This document shows positions 8,189 to 27,707 of a stretch of DNA of 27,910 nt, in pieces. The DNA is taken from positions 1-27,910 of the IMG/VR virus record IMGVR_UViG_3300037049_000012; one strand, 5' to 3'. Source of the DNA: a virus. The number at the start of each line of letters is the position of its first letter. The stretch's first letter is position 1. The position numbers and the translations under genes are program-made. Below the pieces are notes generated by a model. The model was given only the letters and a program-made list of their open reading frames with translations, was not told the DNA's origin and did no database searches.

Positions 8189-8602
8189 CTATTTCAAAAA
8201 GATCCTAAACGACACGAAAAGTAACGCGTAAATGGTGCCTCTTGTGAAGACATTTGCCCAGAGAGCACTGTTTCTGCACACTTTCATCCAGAATCTCCCC
8301 AACGCTGAGCCCTTGTCTGTGCTGTCGGGTATCCCGTAGCCAATGCTCTGAACGGCAAAGCTCAAAGGGATTCCCAGGAGAACAAATCCTCTCATAACAA
8401 CAAAAAGCGCAAATCCTACAATGGAAGGACATACAAGCCTCCTCCAAATTTTATCAGATCCCTCCATCCCTGACGCGGCCCAAAGGAGTGAACAGAGAGG
8501 GCAGCAGAGAAGGCACAGCCATTTTAGCCATGCTACAAACATCAACGGGTAGAGGAATCCGATAAGTAGTTCACTTCGGTTGAGTTTCTTGAGCCAAGTC
8601 AT
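8189..8602 (-). CDS. Multi-pass membrane protein, Cys-rich
   Basis: This 137-residue protein has at least three strongly hydrophobic stretches: residues ~11-43 (long enough for one or two helices and holding C30, C33, C34 and C37), ~60-84 and ~121-135. Basic loops lie between them. No family is recognised. Its ATG overlaps the stop of the lipoprotein gene (TGATG), so it is the last member of the small membrane-gene cluster and lies just before the tail nozzle gene. A holin, antiholin or superinfection-exclusion protein are all possible; composition alone does not decide. Confidence 0.5.
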   Translation of the reverse strand: MTWLKKLNRSELLIGFLYPLMFVAWLKWLCLLCCPLCSLLWAASGMEGSDKIWRRLVCPSIVGFALFVVMRGFVLLGIPLSFAVQSIGYGIPDSTDKGSALGRFWMKVCRNSALWANVFTRGTIYALLFVSFRIFLK

Positions 8603-8844
8603 CAGGACACCTTTTTCTTCTCAACAACCTGAGCATTCATAACCTCTCCCACATAGAACTTGGAGAGGAAGTACCCGTCCTGCGCAGCGGTATAGGCCGT
8701 CCCCTTAGGCATATTGACGATATCAGTACCCTGAATTGGATAGACCGTAGTTTTAGCAACGGCGCATCCGCTAAGCAAGAAGCACCCACTAAACAGAACG
8801 TAAGCGAGCGAAACCAGCAGTAATCTTTGAAATGTCGTTCTCAT
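8602..8844 (-). CDS. Small lipoprotein, candidate outer-membrane spanin
   Basis: This 80-residue protein has Arg residues at the N-terminus, a hydrophobic stretch and a canonical lipobox LSGC with the acceptor at C27; an earlier C21 lacks a good -3 residue. The mature part (~53 residues) is polar and contains a Pro and a Lys-rich end. Phage lipoproteins of this size next to a holin gene are usually o-spanins (Rz1-like), which join the outer to the inner membrane protein during lysis of Gram-negative hosts. GGAGGG before the ATG lies inside the preceding gene, with a 56-base overlap. This matches the nested Rz/Rz1 layout. The mature region is not notably proline-rich, so the assignment is tentative. 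Confidence 0.6.
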   Translation of the reverse strand: MRTTFQRLLLVSLAYVLFSGCFLLSGCAVAKTTVYPIQGTDIVNMPKGTAYTAAQDGYFLSKFYVGEVMNAQVVEKKKVS

Positions 8845-8980
8845 TAAGTCCCTCCTGAACCATCGATTGAGCAGAGGTTACATTCGCGCGAGTCTCGGAA
8901 GCCTTACGGCCAAAATATTTCCAAAGTCCGATTACGCATGAAAGTATCGTCCCGATCAGCGTTAAGATCGTCGCAATCAT
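8789..8980 (-). CDS. Single-pass membrane protein, candidate inner spanin partner
   Basis: This 63-residue protein has one N-terminal transmembrane segment (MIATILTLIGTILSCVIGLW), then a Lys/Arg hinge and a ~38-residue polar tail that may form a helix. Its stop lies 56 bases inside the lipoprotein gene. Its own ATG overlaps the stop of the holin-like gene (ATGA). An inner spanin should have an N-terminal anchor and a periplasmic helix overlapping the lipoprotein frame. That geometry is present, but the tail is far shorter than a normal Rz protein and may not span the periplasm alone. Alternatives are a second holin component or a regulator. Confidence 0.5.
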   Translation of the reverse strand: MIATILTLIGTILSCVIGLWKYFGRKASETRANVTSAQSMVQEGLNENDISKITAGFARLRSV

Positions 8981-9240
8981 TTTCCTGCCGCCGATGATGT
9001 CGTCGCCGTCACAGCCGCTGTGGTATTCGCTGTCGTCTTAACGTTTGTCCGCGAGATAAGATACGACACCGTTGACGCGATAATCACCAGAAACGACGCT
9101 ACCTGTGTTATTACAGAGCCAACCGTCGAAGCGGTCTGCCCTGCAATTGCTGTCGGATGGAACAAAAACACAATCGACGCAAGATTCGTTAAAAGCGTTA
9201 CCCAAAACTCCGTTGTCAAAATCCCGGCTTTAACGTCCAT
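8977..9240 (-). CDS. Holin-like protein, two membrane segments
   Basis: The 87-residue product has two predicted helices (about residues 12-28 and 44-63), a short turn between them and a polar Thr/Ala/Ser-rich C-terminus ending AAGK. That size and topology, together with a strong AAAAGGAGGAG ribosome site, are typical of class II-like phage holins, which permeabilise the inner membrane at a set time. The ribosome site lies inside the preceding 56-residue gene. Family membership cannot be proven by sequence, since holins share topology more than sequence, but the gene sits centrally in a cluster of membrane genes beside a lipoprotein gene. Confidence 0.6.
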   Translation of the reverse strand: MDVKAGILTTEFWVTLLTNLASIVFLFHPTAIAGQTASTVGSVITQVASFLVIIASTVSYLISRTNVKTTANTTAAVTATTSSAAGK

Positions 9241-9400
9241 TTGTACTCCTCCTTTTGGGGTTACACCCCGTTGTTTTACGACGTATACGTCTTGCTAATT
9301 TCAAAAGTTCGTTGTCAAGCGCCCGGTTTCTGAATCCGTAAATGAACTGTTCCTGCCACCGCAAAATTGTTTTCTCAAGAATCTTTTTCGAGGGCTTCAT
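9230..9400 (-). CDS. 56-residue basic protein
   Basis: The ATG follows the TAA of the previous gene directly (TAAATG), and the frame runs 56 codons to overlap the holin-like gene start by 11 bases. The product starts MKPSKKILEKTILRWQEQFI and contains a basic stretch (LARRIRRKTTG), with no membrane segment. It would be translated only by coupling, as there is no separate ribosome site. It is the only clearly cytoplasmic, highly basic member of this small-gene run. No function is recognised. Codon-packed position without gaps argues that it is real. Confidence 0.45.
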   Translation of the reverse strand: MKPSKKILEKTILRWQEQFIYGFRNRALDNELLKLARRIRRKTTGCNPKRRSTNGR

Positions 9401-9544
9401 TTATAGCCAAATCCCAAATAGAATTAACACGAAAAAGACACAGTATACAACCACAGTCCGACCTGTGAGATCTGCTTCTGTAAAAAGCCCAAAAACAGAC
9501 CCAAGTTCTGCAAGTGTGGCTAAAATTTTCACTGTGTGTATCAT
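9401..9544 (-). CDS. 47-residue membrane protein
   Basis: The frame opens one base after the stop of the XhlA-like gene (TAA C ATG) and ends at a TAA that abuts the next ATG. It starts MIHTVKILATLAELGSVFG and has a C-terminal hydrophobic helix (VVVYCVFFVLILFGIW). The N-terminal part could be a second amphipathic or hydrophobic helix. Continuous coupling on both sides is the main support. The role is probably in the lysis or membrane cluster but is not identifiable. Confidence 0.45.
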   Translation of the reverse strand: MIHTVKILATLAELGSVFGLFTEADLTGRTVVVYCVFFVLILFGIWL

Positions 9545-9545
9545 G

Positions 9546-9728
9546 TTATCTAATCCATTTAACTATCAGCGTAGTTATTGATACCGCCATGCCCATATAA
9601 ACTAAAAGATTCTGGTGGGCAAGTTTTAGCGCTTTTTCATGCTCGACGATTATTATATGAAGTCTTTCTACGTCTATCCGTAATTTGGTTATCACCTCAT
9701 TGTCGGAATCCATAAGCGCACCGCTCAT
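9546..9728 (-). CDS. XhlA-like tail-anchored membrane protein
   Basis: A 60-residue protein starting MSGALMDSDNEV. Residues ~8-40 form a polar, charged helix with Leu/Ile heptad spacing, and the C-terminus is one transmembrane helix followed by KWIR. This resembles haemolysin XhlA-type proteins, which work with holins in some phages. I chose the start at 9728 because GGGAGG lies six bases before it and it overlaps the previous stop as ATGA. A longer frame from 9758 has no such site. The membrane topology is clear and the XhlA likeness is only by shape. Confidence 0.5.
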   Translation of the reverse strand: MSGALMDSDNEVITKLRIDVERLHIIIVEHEKALKLAHQNLLVYMGMAVSITTLIVKWIR

Positions 9729-10015
9729 TTTATCCTCCCAGAAATGCCTTTCATCCAATTCTTAAGATCGTCTATCCCGGCATTCGTGTATTTTTGCGCC
9801 GTCTCGAAATTATCCAACCGTGACGCAAGTTTAAGATCGGCCTCATGGAGCGTCTGAATCTGACACTGTACTTGAGAAATTTGAGCAGCTTGTGCGCCAA
9901 CTACTTCGGGTAGACTATAAAATTTAATCCCGCACGCGAAGATTGCCCCGACAGCTCCCAAAATCAAAAGAATGTCTTTTCCTCTTATAAGCCATGCGTC
10001 AAGATGCTGTTTCAC
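9725..10015 (-). CDS. N-terminally anchored coiled-coil membrane protein
   Basis: This 96-residue protein uses a GTG start with AGGAG six bases upstream. One transmembrane segment covers about residues 15-33 (ILLILGAVGAIFACGIKF). A ~55-residue Gln/Leu/Ala-rich helix follows, likely a coiled coil (AAQISQVQCQIQTLHEADLK), ending GISGRIK. An N-terminal anchor plus periplasmic coiled coil is the normal design of an inner spanin (Rz). It is therefore an alternative to the 63-residue protein as partner of the lipoprotein, although it does not overlap that gene. It begins the small-gene cluster directly after the tail fibre region. Confidence 0.5.
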   Translation of the reverse strand: MKQHLDAWLIRGKDILLILGAVGAIFACGIKFYSLPEVVGAQAAQISQVQCQIQTLHEADLKLASRLDNFETAQKYTNAGIDDLKNWMKGISGRIK

Positions 10016-10024
10016 AAAAATCTC

Positions 10025-10141
10025 CTAGTGTACGATGGACGGTGAAGGTGTCGTTACCGTGTTATTTGCCACAAAAGTCGTCGAGTCGTTAGTCGTAACC
10101 CCGTACCCACCCCACACCGTTCTTAAAGCTGATAACGTAGC
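10025..10141 (-). pseudogene. Orphan C-terminal coding remnant, possibly from a displaced fibre gene
   Basis: Immediately after the stop of the 64-residue gene, a frame without a start codon reads ATLSALRTVWGGYG, continues VTTNDSTTFVANN and ends PSPSIVH at a TAG. That stop provides part of the next gene's ribosome site. Its Thr/Asn/Val composition and normal codons look like the end of a phage fibre or structural protein rather than random sequence. It is in a different frame from the upstream small gene and has no start codon with a ribosome site. I read it as the leftover 3' end of an earlier fibre or accessory gene. It could instead be chance open sequence. Confidence 0.4.
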
Positions 10142-10335
10142 TATATTGCTTGAATAGAAGCTATAGAAGATGTAATAACATCTAAGCGCAATTGCTCGTC
10201 TGATAATCTATCTGTATTTAGCTGTAATTCATCCAATAACTCTTGTTTGGAAATTGAAACAACACCATCAATAGATAAACCATCATTTGATAGTTTTGTG
10301 TCTTTAATATTTGATCTTGAAAAATCTATTGGCAT
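10141..10335 (-). CDS. Small AT-rich fibre-associated protein
   Basis: A 64-residue protein, polar and helical in its second half (SKQELLDELQLNTDRLSDEQ), with no Cys, Trp or hydrophobic segment. AAGGAG lies before its ATG, 12 bases after the tail-fibre stop. The gene is visibly richer in A and T than the genes around it, like the last kilobase of the fibre gene. It is probably part of the same acquired module. A short helical protein following a fibre gene may be a fibre chaperone or a fibre tip subunit; no motif confirms it. Confidence 0.5.
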   Translation of the reverse strand: MPIDFSRSNIKDTKLSNDGLSIDGVVSISKQELLDELQLNTDRLSDEQLRLDVITSSIASIQAI

Positions 10336-10347
10336 ATTTTCTCCTTA

Positions 10348-13300
10348 TTAAACTGCATCAGCCATTGTTACTAATTTCCGATAATAAACAATCGCTCGAA
10401 CAACTCCACCAGAAAATGTATTGCTGTTTGGTGTAATTGCTATGTTGGTAGTGTTTGTAGTTAATGCTGAAGCTGCATTTTCATTGAAAAGGGTATACAC
10501 TTTTACGTTCTTTGTAAACGCCTGAGCTGTGGTAATTGCTGTTGTGTTCCCACCAGAGTAAGCAGCGGACCAACTAGTTGCCCCGTCTCCAGAAGTAATA
10601 AGTGTATCCACTCTTAACTCTGCCCCAATAATCTTAGCTCCTGTTGGGATACTCAAAGTAATAGTTGTAGATGCTCCAGAAAGAGTAGCTGTAGCTTCTG
10701 CTGCTATTGTAGCTAACCCGCCAACTGTTCCCCCTCCCTGAGTGATAGTTCCAGCATTTACAGTTAGTTGCTGTCCATTGGCCGTTGCCGCAAATGTTCC
10801 GTATATTAAAGCGTTGGTTAATTCTGCTCCTGGATTAGCCTGAACTTTATTATCTATAATTAGCTGATTAGCTCCAGTAGTTTGTTTAGAACCGGCTCCA
10901 TATCCAATATAAACATTAGAAGCCCCAGTTGTGAGATTACCGGAACTATTTCCGATAAAAGTGTTATAAGAGGCATTTACTAGAGAAAAACCAGCTTCTC
11001 CTCCTATAGCTGTATTGTAAATCCCTCCTTGCAAATATCGCATAGCGTTTGCACCTATAGCTACGCTATCGAAGGTTGTGCAATCTCCGCCAGAAGACGC
11101 GCCTAAAGAGTATCTTCCTATTCCTACGTTTGTACTCCCGTATCCGTTTAAAGCTCCAGCTAAGTGGTTTCCAGAACTGTTTCCTATACAAACGTTGTCC
11201 GCTACTTCAGTTGCTGAAAGCATAGCGGATTGTCCGATTGCGACGTTATTTGTTCCGGCAATTATAGTATAAAGGGAATTTGAGCCTATCCCCATATTCC
11301 CTGATCCAGTGGTTAATGAAGGAAGAACATACGCTCCTATTCCAACGTTAGAATATCCAGAAGTAAGGGACGTAAGGCACTGGTCGCCAAAAGCCGAATT
11401 ATTACCTCCAGTGGATGGGGTACTCGCCACAGGAAGCGCTCTACCATAATGCGTGTCTCCATTATTAGATTGAGGGATTGTTAATCCAAGAAAAGCGATC
11501 ATATTGTCTGCCATAACTTTGTGGACTTGAGCAGAGACATGGGAACCATTTGCCCACTTCTCACCCACGGTATATGGACCGACCAAAGAATAGTTGTCGA
11601 TCAAACCAAGGCTGTAGGTACGAGCAAGTATTTTTAACTGAGCGATATACGCGCTCATTCCCGCCGTAGACACATCGGTCGGAGACATTATCAGTATGGA
11701 CATTAACGGATTGACCGTTTGTAGTCTGGATACAACAGTAGCCATATCCGCGTAGTATTGCGCGGGAGTTCTGGAAGCTATATCATTTACTCCCATTGAG
11801 ATAACGGCCAAGTCCGGTGGACCAAGCTGTGTTATTTCTGCTTTCCACTTTGTGGCATCTACAGAGGCGAGAGACTGGACGCTCAACCCGCCCGTGGCTA
11901 CGTTATTCCAATGAATACCGGGTTGTGTGCCATTGTCGTAACAGAGTCTGATACATTCAACACCTCCCAGTATTGTGCCGCTTCCACCTGGCAAAGTCAG
12001 GACTATCGTATGCGAGACATTGGAAAGGCCGCTTATAGTGGTTAATTGAACTCCTGCTGTTCCTGCCGTGTGAATCGTAACAGGGGCGCCTCCATCGATG
12101 GTATATGTCATATCTCCACCACCTGCTTGTAGAATGGAGTGGACAATAAAGCTCGTCGCTACAGTAGTAATCGAAAAACTTCCAGAACCGGATGGGTAAC
12201 TTCCGGAAGAATCCGGTGTTGGCTGAGTACCTTGATACTGCGACCACGCTCCCGTTGGCTCACTTACTGTCGCGTTATACGGAACAGCCCCGAAAGGGGC
12301 AATATATCCAGCACCGGAGTTACCGTAAGATTGAGTAAGATATTTATGCAACCATCCAGACCATTCAGGGCCGTTTCCTGTTTCGTTGTAAGACCACGAA
12401 TCCCCTATAACCAAGACATTTAAACCTGTCCCTTGCTTAATGGAAATATCTCCGAGCTTCGTCAGAGCGTTGGCAAGGTTCTCTTTTCCGAAGTTTATCT
12501 GATGCGTGCCGTTATTAAGAACGTCTCCCGCATCAACTGTCCCGGGCGTTGTAACACTCGCTTGAGCGTACAAGGCACCTCCAGTGATTTTCTTTAAAGA
12601 CACGCTGTTGATATGAAGCGTCCCAGAATCCGCAGTGAACACTAAAGAATCCGTCGTGGTTGCCTTAAAAATCTTAGACGGTAATGTCGTCCCATAACCA
12701 GCGGAGGTAATAACGTCAAACGTATTTCCTCCGCATGAAACGGTTAGGTTTCCTGAAAAACTGTCCGACGTGATATAAAGATAATAGTATTCCCCCGCCA
12801 CAATGGGCGTGACCATCGCCGCCGAAGTTTGCGTAAGAGAGCCAGAAGAACTTGTATGCACAGCCTTATGCCCAGACGTGTCGATAGTCCAACCAGTACC
12901 CGCAGTCCAACCTGTCGCAGAACTAAAAGTTGGGTTCGTTATTTTCTCAGCCCCAAGAGAACTTGGGTTAAGAATGGCTGTATCTTCATTTATAGACACA
13001 CCCGTTGATTTGATAAGCAATAACGGGTCAAGGCCCGACGTGTCTGACGTACCGATCCCCACGCTTCCATTGTAAGAGTTACCTGCGTCTATAGCGTAAG
13101 ACGTGCTTCCATGAAAGGTTCCGCTTAGGGCGTTCGCTGGAATAGATGAATTGGCGTCTAATCCCGCGTACCCGGATGCGGCATTCTTAGCGGACACGGC
13201 CTGATAGGTTCCAGACAAGTCCGGTAAGTTCGTTAAAAGGGCACCGCTGACCGCAGGCAACTGTGAACTTCCGTTTAACTGAACAAGATTATTTGCCGCT

Positions 13301-13959
13301 GTTCCTACGGTATAGGACGTTCCCCACGTAGAGCTTCCAGAGTAATTGGCAACACCTGCTGCATCAGGCCAGGTCATGCTTCCACCGCCACCTGTGGCCC
13401 ACTTGACCCCTAAAGACTGCGTTGAATCGGCGGTTAATATCTGCCCGTTTGTCCCGACTGGCAAACGGTCATTAGTCGTCGAAAAACCGTAAAGATCGCC
13501 TTTTGTGGTAAGCGGAGACGAACCACTGGCCGCCGCCCAAGATAAATTTCCCGCACCGTCATCTGTCAGTACACCTACCGCATCTGTTGGATAGAGTTTA
13601 GAGTTCCAGGCTCCTAGCGAATTCCATTTCAGCCCAGGTATCTGCGCTGAATCGGCGGTCAACACCTGCCCATTTGTTCCGATAGGGATCCTAACATCTG
13701 CCGTAGAATAACCCCATACATCGCCTTTAGTCGTTAACGGTGAAGAAATTCCTGTGCCTCCTGCTGCGGTAACAACCCCGTGTCCGGCGCCGGTAGTCGT
13801 AAGCGTCGTACCGGTGCTAAGAATCAGATCCGTACAATTAGGTATCACCACAGTATCTGTGGAGTTATGCACCTTTGTGTACGTCTGCATTCCGCCCGCC
13901 AGAACAAACTGACTAGAAAACAAAAGCCCAACAAAAAGCGCGAGAAATTTTTTCTTCAC
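10348..13959 (-). CDS. Large tail fibre or spike with SGNH-hydrolase domain
   Basis: This 1203-residue protein uses a GTG start one base after the previous stop. Residues 1-21 form a Sec-type signal peptide (MKKKFLALFVGLLFSSQFVLA). Two tandem repeats beginning SPLTTKGD (residues 73 and 148) are a phage-fibre motif. Residues ~512-826 carry SGNH-hydrolase blocks: GDSW at 519-522 with the nucleophile S521, a Gly near 690, GVND at 723-726 and NGSH at 804-807. The usual DxxH Asp is Asn. About 855-1035 is a series of NVGIG/TTG repeats like YadA-type head beta-rolls. The C-terminus is a beta-rich trimer-type domain. The likely role is host-glycan binding, with deacetylation of a surface polysaccharide if the enzyme is active. 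Confidence 0.8.
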   Translation of the reverse strand: MKKKFLALFVGLLFSSQFVLAGGMQTYTKVHNSTDTVVIPNCTDLILSTGTTLTTTGAGHGVVTAAGGTGISSPLTTKGDVWGYSTADVRIPIGTNGQVLTADSAQIPGLKWNSLGAWNSKLYPTDAVGVLTDDGAGNLSWAAASGSSPLTTKGDLYGFSTTNDRLPVGTNGQILTADSTQSLGVKWATGGGGSMTWPDAAGVANYSGSSTWGTSYTVGTAANNLVQLNGSSQLPAVSGALLTNLPDLSGTYQAVSAKNAASGYAGLDANSSIPANALSGTFHGSTSYAIDAGNSYNGSVGIGTSDTSGLDPLLLIKSTGVSINEDTAILNPSSLGAEKITNPTFSSATGWTAGTGWTIDTSGHKAVHTSSSGSLTQTSAAMVTPIVAGEYYYLYITSDSFSGNLTVSCGGNTFDVITSAGYGTTLPSKIFKATTTDSLVFTADSGTLHINSVSLKKITGGALYAQASVTTPGTVDAGDVLNNGTHQINFGKENLANALTKLGDISIKQGTGLNVLVIGDSWSYNETGNGPEWSGWLHKYLTQSYGNSGAGYIAPFGAVPYNATVSEPTGAWSQYQGTQPTPDSSGSYPSGSGSFSITTVATSFIVHSILQAGGGDMTYTIDGGAPVTIHTAGTAGVQLTTISGLSNVSHTIVLTLPGGSGTILGGVECIRLCYDNGTQPGIHWNNVATGGLSVQSLASVDATKWKAEITQLGPPDLAVISMGVNDIASRTPAQYYADMATVVSRLQTVNPLMSILIMSPTDVSTAGMSAYIAQLKILARTYSLGLIDNYSLVGPYTVGEKWANGSHVSAQVHKVMADNMIAFLGLTIPQSNNGDTHYGRALPVASTPSTGGNNSAFGDQCLTSLTSGYSNVGIGAYVLPSLTTGSGNMGIGSNSLYTIIAGTNNVAIGQSAMLSATEVADNVCIGNSSGNHLAGALNGYGSTNVGIGRYSLGASSGGDCTTFDSVAIGANAMRYLQGGIYNTAIGGEAGFSLVNASYNTFIGNSSGNLTTGASNVYIGYGAGSKQTTGANQLIIDNKVQANPGAELTNALIYGTFAATANGQQLTVNAGTITQGGGTVGGLATIAAEATATLSGASTTITLSIPTGAKIIGAELRVDTLITSGDGATSWSAAYSGGNTTAITTAQAFTKNVKVYTLFNENAASALTTNTTNIAITPNSNTFSGGVVRAIVYYRKLVTMADAV

Positions 13960-22135: not shown

Positions 22136-22371
22136 TAAATTATCCCCATTTCTTGCAGAGCTTTCACTTCTTCCGAAACTTCCTGCTCAGTTTTTTCACG
22201 AAGTTTACCGCTTTTAGAATCGACGACGAGAGGACGTTTAATTTCACCGGCGGGTTTATTTCTTTTTTCGCTTAACTGAGAAAATAAATTTTCGAGGAGT
22301 TTTGTGAGTCTTGAAATTTCTTCATCTTTTGCTTTTAGGAGAAGCGTTAGAGATTCTACGCTATGCGGCAT
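22135..22371 (-). CDS. Small coiled-coil protein before portal
   Basis: A 78-residue protein starting MPHSVESLTLLLKAKDEEIS. It has an initial leucine-rich helix (to about residue 35), then a Lys/Glu-rich tail with LREKTEQEVSEEVKALQEMG. It would form a short coiled coil. I prefer the ATG at 22371; an in-frame GTG at 22395 adds eight residues and cannot be excluded. It overlaps the zinc-finger gene and the portal. Role unknown; translation coupling with the portal suggests an assembly role. Confidence 0.5.
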   Translation of the reverse strand: MPHSVESLTLLLKAKDEEISRLTKLLENLFSQLSEKRNKPAGEIKRPLVVDSKSGKLREKTEQEVSEEVKALQEMGII

Positions 22372-22579
22372 ACTCAAGGCTTTCTGTAGTACCACACGGT
22401 TTTTCCAGACGTTTGCCGTTTGAGTAATGCGAATTGCAGATGAGATTTATTTTTCCGAAATAAAGGCAGGTGATAACTTCGAGAAGACCATCTTTACCAG
22501 TTTTTATATGGACAGTTCCGTCTGTATCTACTTTGCAAAGAATCCTGTGACATTTTTTGCAGCGGATTTCTTTCAACAT
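22361..22579 (-). CDS. Com-like zinc-finger protein
   Basis: A 72-residue protein starting MLKEIRCKKCHRILCKVDTD. Cys residues at 7, 10, 15, 38, 48 and 62 and the pattern IRCKxCxRxLxKxD resemble the Mu Com translational-regulator family, a small zinc-binding RNA-binding protein. In Mu, Com unmasks translation of the mom gene; no mom-like gene is visible here. It sits between terminase and portal, overlapping the displaced terminase reading frame by 7 bases. The zinc-finger likeness is good, the regulatory role is an extrapolation. Confidence 0.6.
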   Translation of the reverse strand: MLKEIRCKKCHRILCKVDTDGTVHIKTGKDGLLEVITCLYFGKINLICNSHYSNGKRLEKPCGTTESLEYAA

Positions 22580-22737
22580 AACGTTGTGTCCACAAATTCA
22601 CGAGGCGTTTCCTTTTTAGGCTTTAAAGCCTTATTCCATCTTTCCCAGAATGCTTGGTCTTTTAACGATAAACCTTCATAAGGGTCTTTGTCAAGTTTTT
22701 TCTTTGAGCGATATAAAATATTCTTAAGTCCCCATAC
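22573..22737 (-). pseudogene. Displaced C-terminal segment of the large terminase (-1 frame)
   Basis: In the -1 frame relative to the large-terminase gene, from about 22737 to the TGA at 22573, the reading is coding-like: VWGLKNILYRSKKK, then DPYEGLSLKDQAFWERWNKA, then KPKKETPREFVD. There is no start codon. It overlaps the last ~24 codons of the annotated terminase and continues about 90 bases past its stop, up to the next gene's start. I read it as the original end of the terminase, cut off by a small deletion or a frameshift. A sequencing or assembly error would give the same picture. A frame here has no other obvious purpose. Confidence 0.5.
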
Positions 22738-23906
22738 GCATAATAACGTACGGCACCGCTAGGAAGTATTTCGTACTCAAAAGAACTTAGCTCATTCATC
22801 AGCACCGGAATCTCCGGATACGTAATCATTTTCTGTTCAATAGCGATCGATAGAAATTCTATCATCTCTTTTTTTGACTCCGATGTAAACTTTATCCCCT
22901 GAACCTTAACTTCCGCGCGCCGAAGATCGTGCTCTATGGGATCCCCAAGACCGGTAGAGTCCATCCACACCTGCGCGTTGTTATAAAGTTTGGCTAGCCA
23001 CTTTATCCTCTCCTTCTGAAACGTCCACTCCAACTGGTTAAATCTGTCCCAGTACACCACATGCTGAGTCTCCAGATCCATGACCGTCAATACCGTAAAA
23101 TCGATCGTCCGCGCCAGATCCGCCCCGATAAGATATTTGTGGTCCTTCACCACCGCCTGAAACTCACCGCCGACACATCCGGAGATCTTCCGAAACACCG
23201 CCGCCGTGTCTTCCAGAAATTCTGCCATAAACTCTTGCTTGAACACAAGTTCTGGCAACGTCCTCCGGAGGGCTTCCCACTCCTCCGCTGGAAATGTCGG
23301 CCTGGAATTAGACGGTAACTGCCACGATTTGTAGTCCTTGTCCCCCGACAATCCTCTGATATAGAGATCGTAGAACCAGTTGCGTCCCTTGGGGGTAGAG
23401 CCGAACACCGCCCGCCCGAGTTTATCCGACAACGCCGGCCTGATACCCTGTTCCCAAGCCTCTCGCGGAATTCTAGCGGCTTCCGCCATAATAGCGTAAT
23501 CCAAACCCGCCCCTCTGAGGGTGGTGTCCTTAGAGTCAGCCGACTTAATCTCCAACTCATCCCCGGTGATGAAAAACATGACTTTCTTCTGCCTGCTAGT
23601 CTTGTCCCAGTCTATAACATGCCGTAGAAGCGCCTCCGCATGCCGCCACTCTTCCATGGCAAGATCGTACGTCGGCGCCACAATCCACCCCCGGGATGGT
23701 CTCCCGTATTTGGTACGTACATCCGCCGCCATCTCAAACGCCTCCATAACCTCCAGACAGCTTTTCCCCCATCGTCTGCCGCAGGCGAGAATCCTAAACC
23801 TCGCCGGATGACGATGAATCTCGTACGCCGTAGGGCTGTGCGGAAGATAAAGAAGTGGAAGAATGTCAGTATTTAGCGGTACTGGGTCAGTTATCGAGGT
23901 CGCCAA
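22662..23906 (-). CDS. terL: Terminase large subunit, C-terminus altered
   Basis: This 414-residue packaging motor has a Walker A at residues 43-49 (GRRWGKS). A Walker B-like strand YAIMAEAAR ends near 145 with the catalytic Glu, preceded by Ala instead of Asp, and FGSTPKGRNWFYD (about 168-180) is a coupling motif. Nuclease acidic residues lie at D263 (GADLARTIDFT) and D316 (WMDSTGLGDP). The expected third acidic motif (Gly-x-His-Asp-Asp type) after SGAVRY is missing, and the last residues run into a different frame. Start is TTG at 23906 with GAGGA upstream; the first ATG lies past Walker A. It overlaps the small subunit gene by 20 bases. Confidence 0.85.
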   Translation of the reverse strand: MATSITDPVPLNTDILPLLYLPHSPTAYEIHRHPARFRILACGRRWGKSCLEVMEAFEMAADVRTKYGRPSRGWIVAPTYDLAMEEWRHAEALLRHVIDWDKTSRQKKVMFFITGDELEIKSADSKDTTLRGAGLDYAIMAEAARIPREAWEQGIRPALSDKLGRAVFGSTPKGRNWFYDLYIRGLSGDKDYKSWQLPSNSRPTFPAEEWEALRRTLPELVFKQEFMAEFLEDTAAVFRKISGCVGGEFQAVVKDHKYLIGADLARTIDFTVLTVMDLETQHVVYWDRFNQLEWTFQKERIKWLAKLYNNAQVWMDSTGLGDPIEHDLRRAEVKVQGIKFTSESKKEMIEFLSIAIEQKMITYPEIPVLMNELSSFEYEILPSGAVRYYAYGDLRIFYIAQRKNLTKTLMKVYR

Positions 23907-24486
23907 GGATATCCTCGCTTTCTGCCGCTACCGGCATTACCGGAACGGCCCGCGACTTGACCGGGATTGCCGGTGCGGTCGCCGGCGCTGCTTCCACCTG
24001 CGCTATTTCCACCTGCGGCGGATTCCTAAGCGGAGAAGTGGACGTAACGCGCCCGGAGCCGTCTGAGGCCATATAAACTATTTGGATTACTTTTTGCTCT
24101 TTTATGAATGTGGAGTTTGCGGTAGCGGGAATATCCACGAACATTTTGTGGTATTTACCGAGGAGATCCAGGGCGCGATTGCGGTCCGCATGAAACGGCG
24201 CGGTGCGGGCGATGCGGGATAATTCAACCAACACCTCATCCTTTGACATGATGGACTTATCTGCCAGGCGATTCTGAATGTCGAGAATTCTAGAACGGAT
24301 GTCCTCGTTCGCCATGAGTTCCGCTGCGGATGCTTTGGCTTTTATTTCAGGAAATTTTTGGGCGGATACTTTGGAGAGGTGAGAATTCTTGAACGCGTCT
24401 ACGGCATTTCCGTGACGTGCAAATTCCAGACAGAACAATTCTTGTTCTGGCGAGAGATGGGGCCTTGCTGAATCTGTATTAACCAT
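23887..24486 (-). CDS. terS: Terminase small subunit
   Basis: A 199-residue protein beginning LSPEQELFCLEFARHGNAVD after a short leader. The pattern LSPEQELFCLEFARHGNAVDAF, followed by an Ala/Lys helix and EDIRSRILDIQNRLAD, matches DNA-recognition helices of phage small terminases (Terminase_2 style). The C-terminal third is Ala/Pro/Val-rich and likely disordered. It is the first gene of the leftward operon, and its ATG has GGAGAAC at a suitable distance from a promoter candidate. It overlaps the large subunit by 20 bases. It should select the packaging site, perhaps in the adjacent repeat region. Confidence 0.8.
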   Translation of the reverse strand: MVNTDSARPHLSPEQELFCLEFARHGNAVDAFKNSHLSKVSAQKFPEIKAKASAAELMANEDIRSRILDIQNRLADKSIMSKDEVLVELSRIARTAPFHADRNRALDLLGKYHKMFVDIPATANSTFIKEQKVIQIVYMASDGSGRVTSTSPLRNPPQVEIAQVEAAPATAPAIPVKSRAVPVMPVAAESEDILGDLDN

Positions 24487-25747: not shown

Positions 25748-26023
25748 ATGAACGCATACCAAAGAGAATTACAACGGCTTCGCCCGGACGACGAAATACA
25801 AAGCATGGAAGCGGATCCGCGGGACCTCGGTTATTCCTTTATTATGACGGCTGACCATGGGTATTTAGTCGTTCCGCGAACGGATAAAAACTATCCACTA
25901 GCGCGAAAAATAGTGTCTTATGGTTTTGTCGGCGCGCTGGCCGTGTACTTAGAGGAGGACGCCGAAGCGCCGCAGTTTATAGACGCGGTAAAACGGGAGT
26001 TATTAGGGGTACATGCAAGTTAA
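25748..26023 (+). CDS. Hypothetical early protein
   Basis: A 91-residue acidic protein with QRELQRLRPDDEIQSMEAD, then a compact section (YSFIMTADHGYLVVPRTDKN) and a helix ending FIDAVKRELLGVHAS. Ribosome site AAGGA lies nine bases before the ATG. No family is recognised. It ends 28 bases before the DUF932-type gene and is likely co-transcribed with it. Confidence 0.5.
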   Translation: MNAYQRELQRLRPDDEIQSMEADPRDLGYSFIMTADHGYLVVPRTDKNYPLARKIVSYGFVGALAVYLEEDAEAPQFIDAVKRELLGVHAS

Positions 26024-26051
26024 CCAGCAACACAAACCGGAGGAACAAAAA

Positions 26052-26870
26052 ATGTCACAATTCACAAATGCACTTGAAAGAATCAATATGCCCGTGTCGG
26101 ACGAACGGGACGCCGACGGCAAGCGGGTACTAGTGGATTATACCGGGCATACGGTGGCGCGCGTGTCCGATAGGTATGCGCTTGTCCAAAACCGGGATAT
26201 ATTCGGGCCTATCGTCGCGCACTTCGGCGAAGATAAAATAAAGCGCGTTATGGTGCAAGGCCGGGGCCGGTATGCCCACATGATGCTGGAAACGGGACGG
26301 GAGTTTTCTTTTTCCTATAATGGACAAACGGACGTTATAAAGGAAAGGCTGGTTATAGAAAACTCGTATAATCATACGCGTTCGTTCCGTTTCATGTTTG
26401 GCGCGTTCCGAATGGTGTGTAGCAATGGCCTATACACGGGGCAAGCGGTGCTGGCGATTCGCCGCATACATTCCGGACGGATAGATATCGGCGGCATTGT
26501 CCAAAACGTGCTGGATTCTTGGGAAACAAACTCGTTTGATCTCTGGCGGGACTTCCAGCGCCAGCCAATGACGTTACAAGAGGAAATAGCGCTTGCCGAA
26601 CGCTTCCAACCGTTTGATGGCGGAACGGATGAAAAGCCGAATTTATTGGCCCGCCGTTCTAATCGTTGGGTTAGCCAGTGCGCGGTAAGTGCCGTTAACA
26701 GGCCCGAGAGCGTAGATAACCAAAGAAACGCGTGGGGCCTTTTAAATGGCCTAAATCGGGGTATATCCACCGTATTGCGTACGCGCGGGGCATTGCAACG
26801 GGTAATATCGGCCAATCAGGCCGCCGAAGCGCACGTATTGCAAGCCGTCCGCGTCTCTCCGGTCGTGTGA
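26052..26870 (+). CDS. DUF932-type phage protein
   Basis: A 272-residue protein with YALVQNRDIFGPIVAHFGED, RYAHMMLETG, VIENSYNHTRSFRFMFGAFR and a section RMVCSNGLYTGQ. These segments match the DUF932 family of phage and plasmid proteins, in which a conserved Met-Val-Cys-x-Asn-Gly pattern is typical. Function is unknown in the family. I chose the start at 26052 because GGAGG lies nine bases before it; an upstream in-frame ATG at 26013 has no ribosome site. It is likely a cytoplasmic DNA-metabolism or host-interaction protein. Confidence 0.7.
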   Translation: MSQFTNALERINMPVSDERDADGKRVLVDYTGHTVARVSDRYALVQNRDIFGPIVAHFGEDKIKRVMVQGRGRYAHMMLETGREFSFSYNGQTDVIKERLVIENSYNHTRSFRFMFGAFRMVCSNGLYTGQAVLAIRRIHSGRIDIGGIVQNVLDSWETNSFDLWRDFQRQPMTLQEEIALAERFQPFDGGTDEKPNLLARRSNRWVSQCAVSAVNRPESVDNQRNAWGLLNGLNRGISTVLRTRGALQRVISANQAAEAHVLQAVRVSPVV

Positions 26871-26874
26871 CGGG

Positions 26875-26902
26875 TACCCGCTGGCCACTACGGCAGCGGG
26901 TA
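26875..26902. repeat. Intergenic hairpin
   Basis: TACCCGCTG at 26875-26883 pairs perfectly with CAGCGGGTA at 26894-26902 across a ten-base loop. It starts four bases after the DUF932-type stop and has no T-run. It shares CGCTGGCCA with the hairpin at 25689, so both may be copies of one operon-spacer element. Confidence 0.45.
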
Positions 26903-26956
26903 TTAAACACAAAGCGCGGTCCGAATGCCGCGCAGTAAACCGGAGGTAATGCAAAC

Positions 26957-27118
26957 ATGAAACAATTAGCAGAACGTGACATAAACGCGCTGCGGTATTT
27001 TGTCCGAGCGACTAATTTCGCGACGGTATTGGCGGCGCTGGCGGACGTGGCAGCGGAAGAACACGAGGACTATCTTGCCGAAGCGCTGGCGGATCTGGCG
27101 CGGAAAGGGACGGCGTAG
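26957..27118 (+). CDS. Small acidic Ala-rich protein
   Basis: A 53-residue protein beginning MKQLAERDINALRYFVRATN and ending ALADLARKGTA, mostly Ala/Glu/Leu helix. It has AAACCGGAGG 8-10 bases before its ATG. Its stop is one base before the ATG of the GP88-type gene (TAG T ATG), so the two are coupled. No function is recognised. Confidence 0.5.
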   Translation: MKQLAERDINALRYFVRATNFATVLAALADVAAEEHEDYLAEALADLARKGTA

Positions 27119-27119
27119 T

Positions 27120-27707
27120 ATGAAGTTCCTTTATTCTATAGGCAACCGCAAACTCGGAAAGGACACGTTAATATTCAATATGACAAGCGCGATGGATTGT
27201 CCAAGCAAAGCGCGCGGATTATGTAAACATCCGGGCCGATGTTATGCGCTCAAAGCGGAAAAGATGTACCCGGCATGCTTACCTTACCGGCGCCGACAAG
27301 CGTTTTACTGGCACCAAAACACGGCCGGCACCATTGCCGCGGATATTCTCGCCGCGCTAAAGCGCCATAAAGCGGTAAAATATATCAGTTTTAGCGAAAG
27401 CGGCGATTTTAAAGACCAAAAAGACGTCCGGAAACTTTACGCCGTGGCGCGAATCGTGCGCATGGCGCGTCCGGAAGGGGTAAAAGACACGCCGAAATTC
27501 TACGGGTACACGGCGCGTCGGGATTTACGCTTTACCAGTGCCCCGGATAATGTGATCGTAAACGGTTCCGGGTTCATGCTAGATAATAAATACACGGCCG
27601 TCGAGACCTACACGCCAGGCGCGTTTCGGTGTTCAGAACAAGAATGCCCGACGTGCACGGCGTGCAAGACCGGCGGCAAAAAGATAATAGAGAACCTTTA
27701 CCACTAA
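27120..27707 (+). CDS. GP88-type cysteine-rich phage protein
   Basis: A 195-residue protein beginning MKFLYSIGNRKLGKDTLIFN. Cys residues at 27, 35, 41 and 53 (with CPSKARGLC and GRCYALKAEK) and a second group at 171, 176, 179 and 182 (CX4CX2CX2C) are the visible hallmarks. Together with FSESGDFKDQ they match the actinophage Gp88-like family. Function is unknown; the eight Cys could bind zinc or an iron-sulphur cluster. The start at 27120 is chosen for coupling to the upstream gene; an earlier ATG in frame at 27000 is not credible. Confidence 0.65.
   Translation: MKFLYSIGNRKLGKDTLIFNMTSAMDCPSKARGLCKHPGRCYALKAEKMYPACLPYRRRQAFYWHQNTAGTIAADILAALKRHKAVKYISFSESGDFKDQKDVRKLYAVARIVRMARPEGVKDTPKFYGYTARRDLRFTSAPDNVIVNGSGFMLDNKYTAVETYTPGAFRCSEQECPTCTACKTGGKKIIENLYH

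Follow-up and report, generated by a model that had tools for sequence, protein, structure and literature searches.

Does the terminase large-subunit gene (terL) of this viral contig encode a protein that naturally lacks the last part of its nuclease active site, or has an ordinary terL been interrupted near its 3' end? The window, by which we mean the whole stretch of DNA analysed, is a linear IMG/VR virus record of 27.9 kb and an incomplete fragment. A preliminary description had proposed that the terminase stops at 414 residues without its last nuclease motif, that its true tail lies in the -1 frame from about position 22737 to the start of the next gene, and that a small non-triplet deletion accounts for both. 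Our analysis agrees: terL is here very probably broken by a recent, single out-of-frame deletion of ~46 bp, in a defective genome or through an amplification or assembly artefact, and does not represent a working new type of terminase. The open reading frame and its catalytic aspartates are located as follows:

22662..23906, minus strand: TerL open reading frame, 414 residues (PF03237 Terminase_6N, 6e-10; phrog_2 terminase large subunit, 1e-34)
23118..23120, minus strand: codon of the first catalytic aspartate, D263 (G20c D294), intact
22959..22961, minus strand: codon of the second catalytic aspartate, D316 (G20c D347), intact

The reading frame starts with TTG, ends in ...SGAVRYYAYGDLRIFYIAQRKNLTKTLMKVYR before its stop codon, and comprises an ATPase domain, most of an RNase H/RuvC-like nuclease domain and 24 out-of-frame residues. 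The ATPase domain is intact, with the Walker A motif GRRWGKS and the catalytic glutamate E142 both present, and the invariant columns of the TerL alignment (G43, G47, K48, and E142) are all kept in the window protein. The RNase H/RuvC-like nuclease fold was likewise found by structural comparison (Foldseek against 5m1f: E 8.6e-14, TM 0.80 by target); in the AlphaFold model of the window TerL, it is truncated at its C-terminal end. The third acidic motif, GxHDD, is absent from the protein and from all six frames of the window; a search of those frames for a copy that had been relocated or duplicated yielded none.

The closest relative found, IMGVR_UViG_3300037264_003289 (hereafter L002), encodes a TerL of 456 residues that is 70% identical to that of the window and whose C-terminus reads ...LRYCAPQGMHDDCVISLALAVWGLKNEIYRK...DQAFWERFSKSMKPKKDTPKSLLDAVSL. 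Both records share the gene order TerS - TerL - Com-like - small protein - portal, but in L002 TerL is intact, with the HDD motif and the tail in one frame. Comparison with this relative defines three further features:

22737..22738, minus strand: deletion junction at which 46 nt of L002 are absent (nucleotide alignment; tblastn frame switch)
22662..22736, minus strand: chance peptide YGDLRIFYIAQRKNLTKTLMKVYR plus stop, in the wrong frame (AlphaFold pLDDT falls to 53, 42, 31)
22573..22737, minus strand: ancestral TerL C-terminal tail, V plus 53 codons plus TGA stop (53% identity to the L002 tail; homologous to the L056-L058 tails)

In the nucleotide alignment, the window shows a single clean gap of 46 nt relative to L002, lying between 22738 and 22737 with a placement that is ambiguous over GC/GCG, and no further gap occurs in the coding part until near the end of terL. 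The frame switches at the same place: residues 2-387 of the L002 protein match window positions 23900-22737 by tblastn, and residues 401-454 match 22743-22582 collinearly in the other frame (E=3e-14 to 4e-14). Coding potential and codon statistics also follow the terminase frame up to the junction and the tail frame beyond it. The lost content amounts to 15 codons and 1 nt, P-Q-G-M-H-D-D-C-V-I-S-L-A-L-A, which corresponds to the last nuclease motif and the beginning of the next helix; the earlier estimates, with ~13 residues lost and an expected length of about 458, were thus close to what L002 indicates. A hairpin, CCGTACG-loop-CGTATGG (22732-22753), was considered as a cause or signal and rejected, since it folds no better than shuffled sequences (z -0.35).

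The residues lost at this junction include a conserved acidic pair. An acidic residue is kept in all 157 relatives that can be aligned over the site; 151 of them carry DD, and the remaining six keep only the second D, preceded by a different residue or by a gap. Across an alignment of 56 sequences, D393, D394, and V396 never vary, and no homologue among the relatives found ends naturally as the window TerL does. Structure prediction points the same way and shows no rebuilt active site: the L002 model contains a confident helix at 394-404 that begins at the catalytic aspartate, whereas in the window model confidence collapses after residue 390 (low from 391) and the equivalent helix is absent. 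The peptide that follows the junction has no counterpart among TerL relatives. Its aspartate, in YGDLR, was considered as a substitute and rejected, as it pairs with the DD column only via an opened gap and lies where the model is of low confidence. Two other relatives carry stop-free, in-frame insertions of ~80 and ~65 residues inside the TerL nuclease domain (L166:1604-2992 and L098:3001-4359, respectively), which are possibly inserted domains or inteins.

The segment beyond the junction still reads as a terminase tail. From 22737, the -1 frame encodes V-WGLKNILYRSKKKLDKDPYEGLSLKDQAFWERWNKALKPKKETPREFVDTTLC followed by a stop, and from the Trp to that stop it counts 53 codons in the window and L002 alike, without an internal stop. 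The tail stop (22573-22575) overlaps the start codon of the next gene (ATG at 22579). As many as 28 of the 53 residues are identical to L002 (53%), compared with a mean of 32% expected if equally many changes were placed at random, and none of 20,000 simulations reached the observed value. Together with differences of 36/26/53% at codon positions 1/2/3, this identity indicates that the tail was under constraint during most of its divergence from L002. Since the tail is still conserved, the break must be either recent or unreal. In L002 the tail continues in frame from the rest of TerL, as it recognisably does in the more distant L056-L058; this was one of the checks that the preliminary description had named, and every one of them that could be run agrees with its proposal.

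Because no stop interrupts the tail frame between the junction and the start of the next gene, programmed frameshifting at the junction might be thought to restore it. A shift could not supply the 15 missing codons, however, and would at best restore the tail with the catalytic aspartate still absent; no relative needs one, as TerL and its tail share a single frame in L002 and L056-L058. With the catalytic residues absent from the DNA, frameshifting cannot rescue TerL, and we regard it as extremely unlikely.

A deletion is the reading that we prefer. It would have been a recent, single, out-of-frame event near the 3' end of terL in a tailed phage, which would have taken out ~46 bp with the third catalytic motif (GxHDD) and the start of the next helix, and thrown the C-terminal arm out of frame. 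The gap, the frame switch and the missing acidic pair are direct observations, as is the state of the genes around terL, which are intact:

22361..22579, minus strand: Com-like zinc-ribbon gene following terL, intact (76% identity with L002 across 70 residues)
23887..24486, minus strand: terminase small subunit (PF03592), frame intact relative to L002
19877..22135, minus strand: portal gene, intact (76% protein identity with L002)

An 86-residue gene between the Com-like gene and the portal gene is likewise intact compared with L002, and the stretch comparable with L002 holds no other decayed gene. A codon scan gave no clear second lesion, with only short gene-to-gene frame changes in the small-gene regions at 8.6-10.3 kb and 18.8-19.5 kb, which have no relative for comparison. 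Elsewhere in the window, positions 8600-10350 hold a cluster of short overlapping minus-strand reading frames, some with hydrophobic segments and mostly without a family match, and positions 10348-13959 encode a 1203-residue tail or tailspike protein in which residues 687-814 resemble a GDSL lipase/acylhydrolase just below the Pfam cut-off. Genes of the DUF932 and GP88 families lie at 26013-27707 on the plus strand, opposite to the structural module.

Whether the 46 bp are missing from a virus or only from its assembled sequence is a question to which we give equal weight on both sides, each answer falling a little short of an even chance. The virus may possess an intact terL, with the 46 bp lost from the contig consensus through a chimeric molecule or mis-resolved strain variants. 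This would fit a linear IMG/VR record whose comparable stretch showed no lesion other than the terL gap and in which the frame, length and stop/start overlap of the tail are all preserved, leaving a break that is very recent or not real. Apparent frame changes inside terL also occur in three other contigs among 183 relatives (roughly 2%; L184, L097, and L199, which are metagenomic contigs or MAGs). However, a clean loss of 46 nt would be an unusual product of short-read assembly at a junction that lacks a long repeat (going by L002, it has GC or GCG and no more), and no hairpin beyond chance strength is present there; a clean gap of this size is also atypical of base-calling error, which argues mildly against a pure sequencing error. 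The same gap, frame switch and tail also fit a deletion truly present in a defective virus, be it a provirus in decay or a mutant that intact siblings carry along. Loss of DNA at short microhomologies is a normal kind of mutation, and proviruses are among the sequences gathered in viral metagenome collections. Against this reading, the incomplete 27.9-kb fragment contains no integrase, tRNA, host flanks, or attachment sites that we could find, which leaves provirus status unsupported, and other decay is lacking in the part compared with L002. Searches for same-species records, in collections that may leave such records out, returned none, either with an exact 26-nt probe in IMG/VR or by distant blastn in phage records.

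The 414-residue product keeps its ATPase domain, which may fold and work, but it should no longer cleave DNA, and its docking on the portal is probably impaired. A copy with both defects would be unable to package concatemeric DNA alone, and for this reason we expect either a defective genome (a population mutant or a provirus in decay) or a gap that arose during amplification or assembly. The opposite reading, a functional nuclease-free terminase that packages DNA with pre-made ends or relies on cuts by another phage or host nuclease, finds some encouragement in the intact ATPase domain and in T4 nuclease mutants, which package only already-linear DNA in vitro (PMC9958956). The genome is also visible only in part, and a complementing nuclease may be encoded outside this linear 27.9 kb fragment. 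An adapted protein would nevertheless not be expected to leave a conserved tail in a dead frame, no relative shows this state, and the loss extends to the C-terminal arm, which in D6E TerL has been linked to ATP binding and portal assembly (PMC5727402). We consider such a terminase highly improbable, and a fixed, viable phage lineage whose terminase motor has no nuclease of its own, with cuts made by another enzyme or unneeded, scarcely credible.

A terL broken in this way is a textbook case of lost function in a viral contig and carries little biological weight in itself. It does call for caution, as an annotation may list terL, which often serves as a phage marker gene, as a complete reading frame even though its active site is missing. 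Should the virus be viable nevertheless, this would speak against the idea that a phage which packages by the headful mode or cuts concatemers depends on a nuclease within its own terminase.

Among terminases of known structure, the nearest relatives of the window TerL by sequence, matching also in fold, are those of the Thermus phages G20c/P74-26/P23-45 (PDB 5m1f, 5tge, 4zni), the same two-domain protein; sequence searches matched the ATPase domain to 4zni (E 3e-23) and the nuclease domain to 5tge/5m1f (E about 2e-17). The window TerL shares with the G20c type the first two catalytic aspartates, but is without the third motif (H427-D428-D429 in G20c) and the helix after it. In the G20c enzyme, D294 is essential, D428 and D429 are needed for nuclease activity, and D429 is indispensable (PMC5389553). 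Further fold matches include the T4, D6E, Sf6, and HK97 terminases. In D6E TerL, a C-terminal segment comes after the last nuclease helix, and this arm has been linked to ATP binding and is proposed to act in portal docking and assembly (PMC5727402); the matching segment, equivalent by position only, is out of frame in the window. Nuclease mutants of T4 gp17 keep their ATPase and fail on DNA that needs cutting (PMC9958956). The window gene is a broken copy of terL, not a working member of the TerL family.
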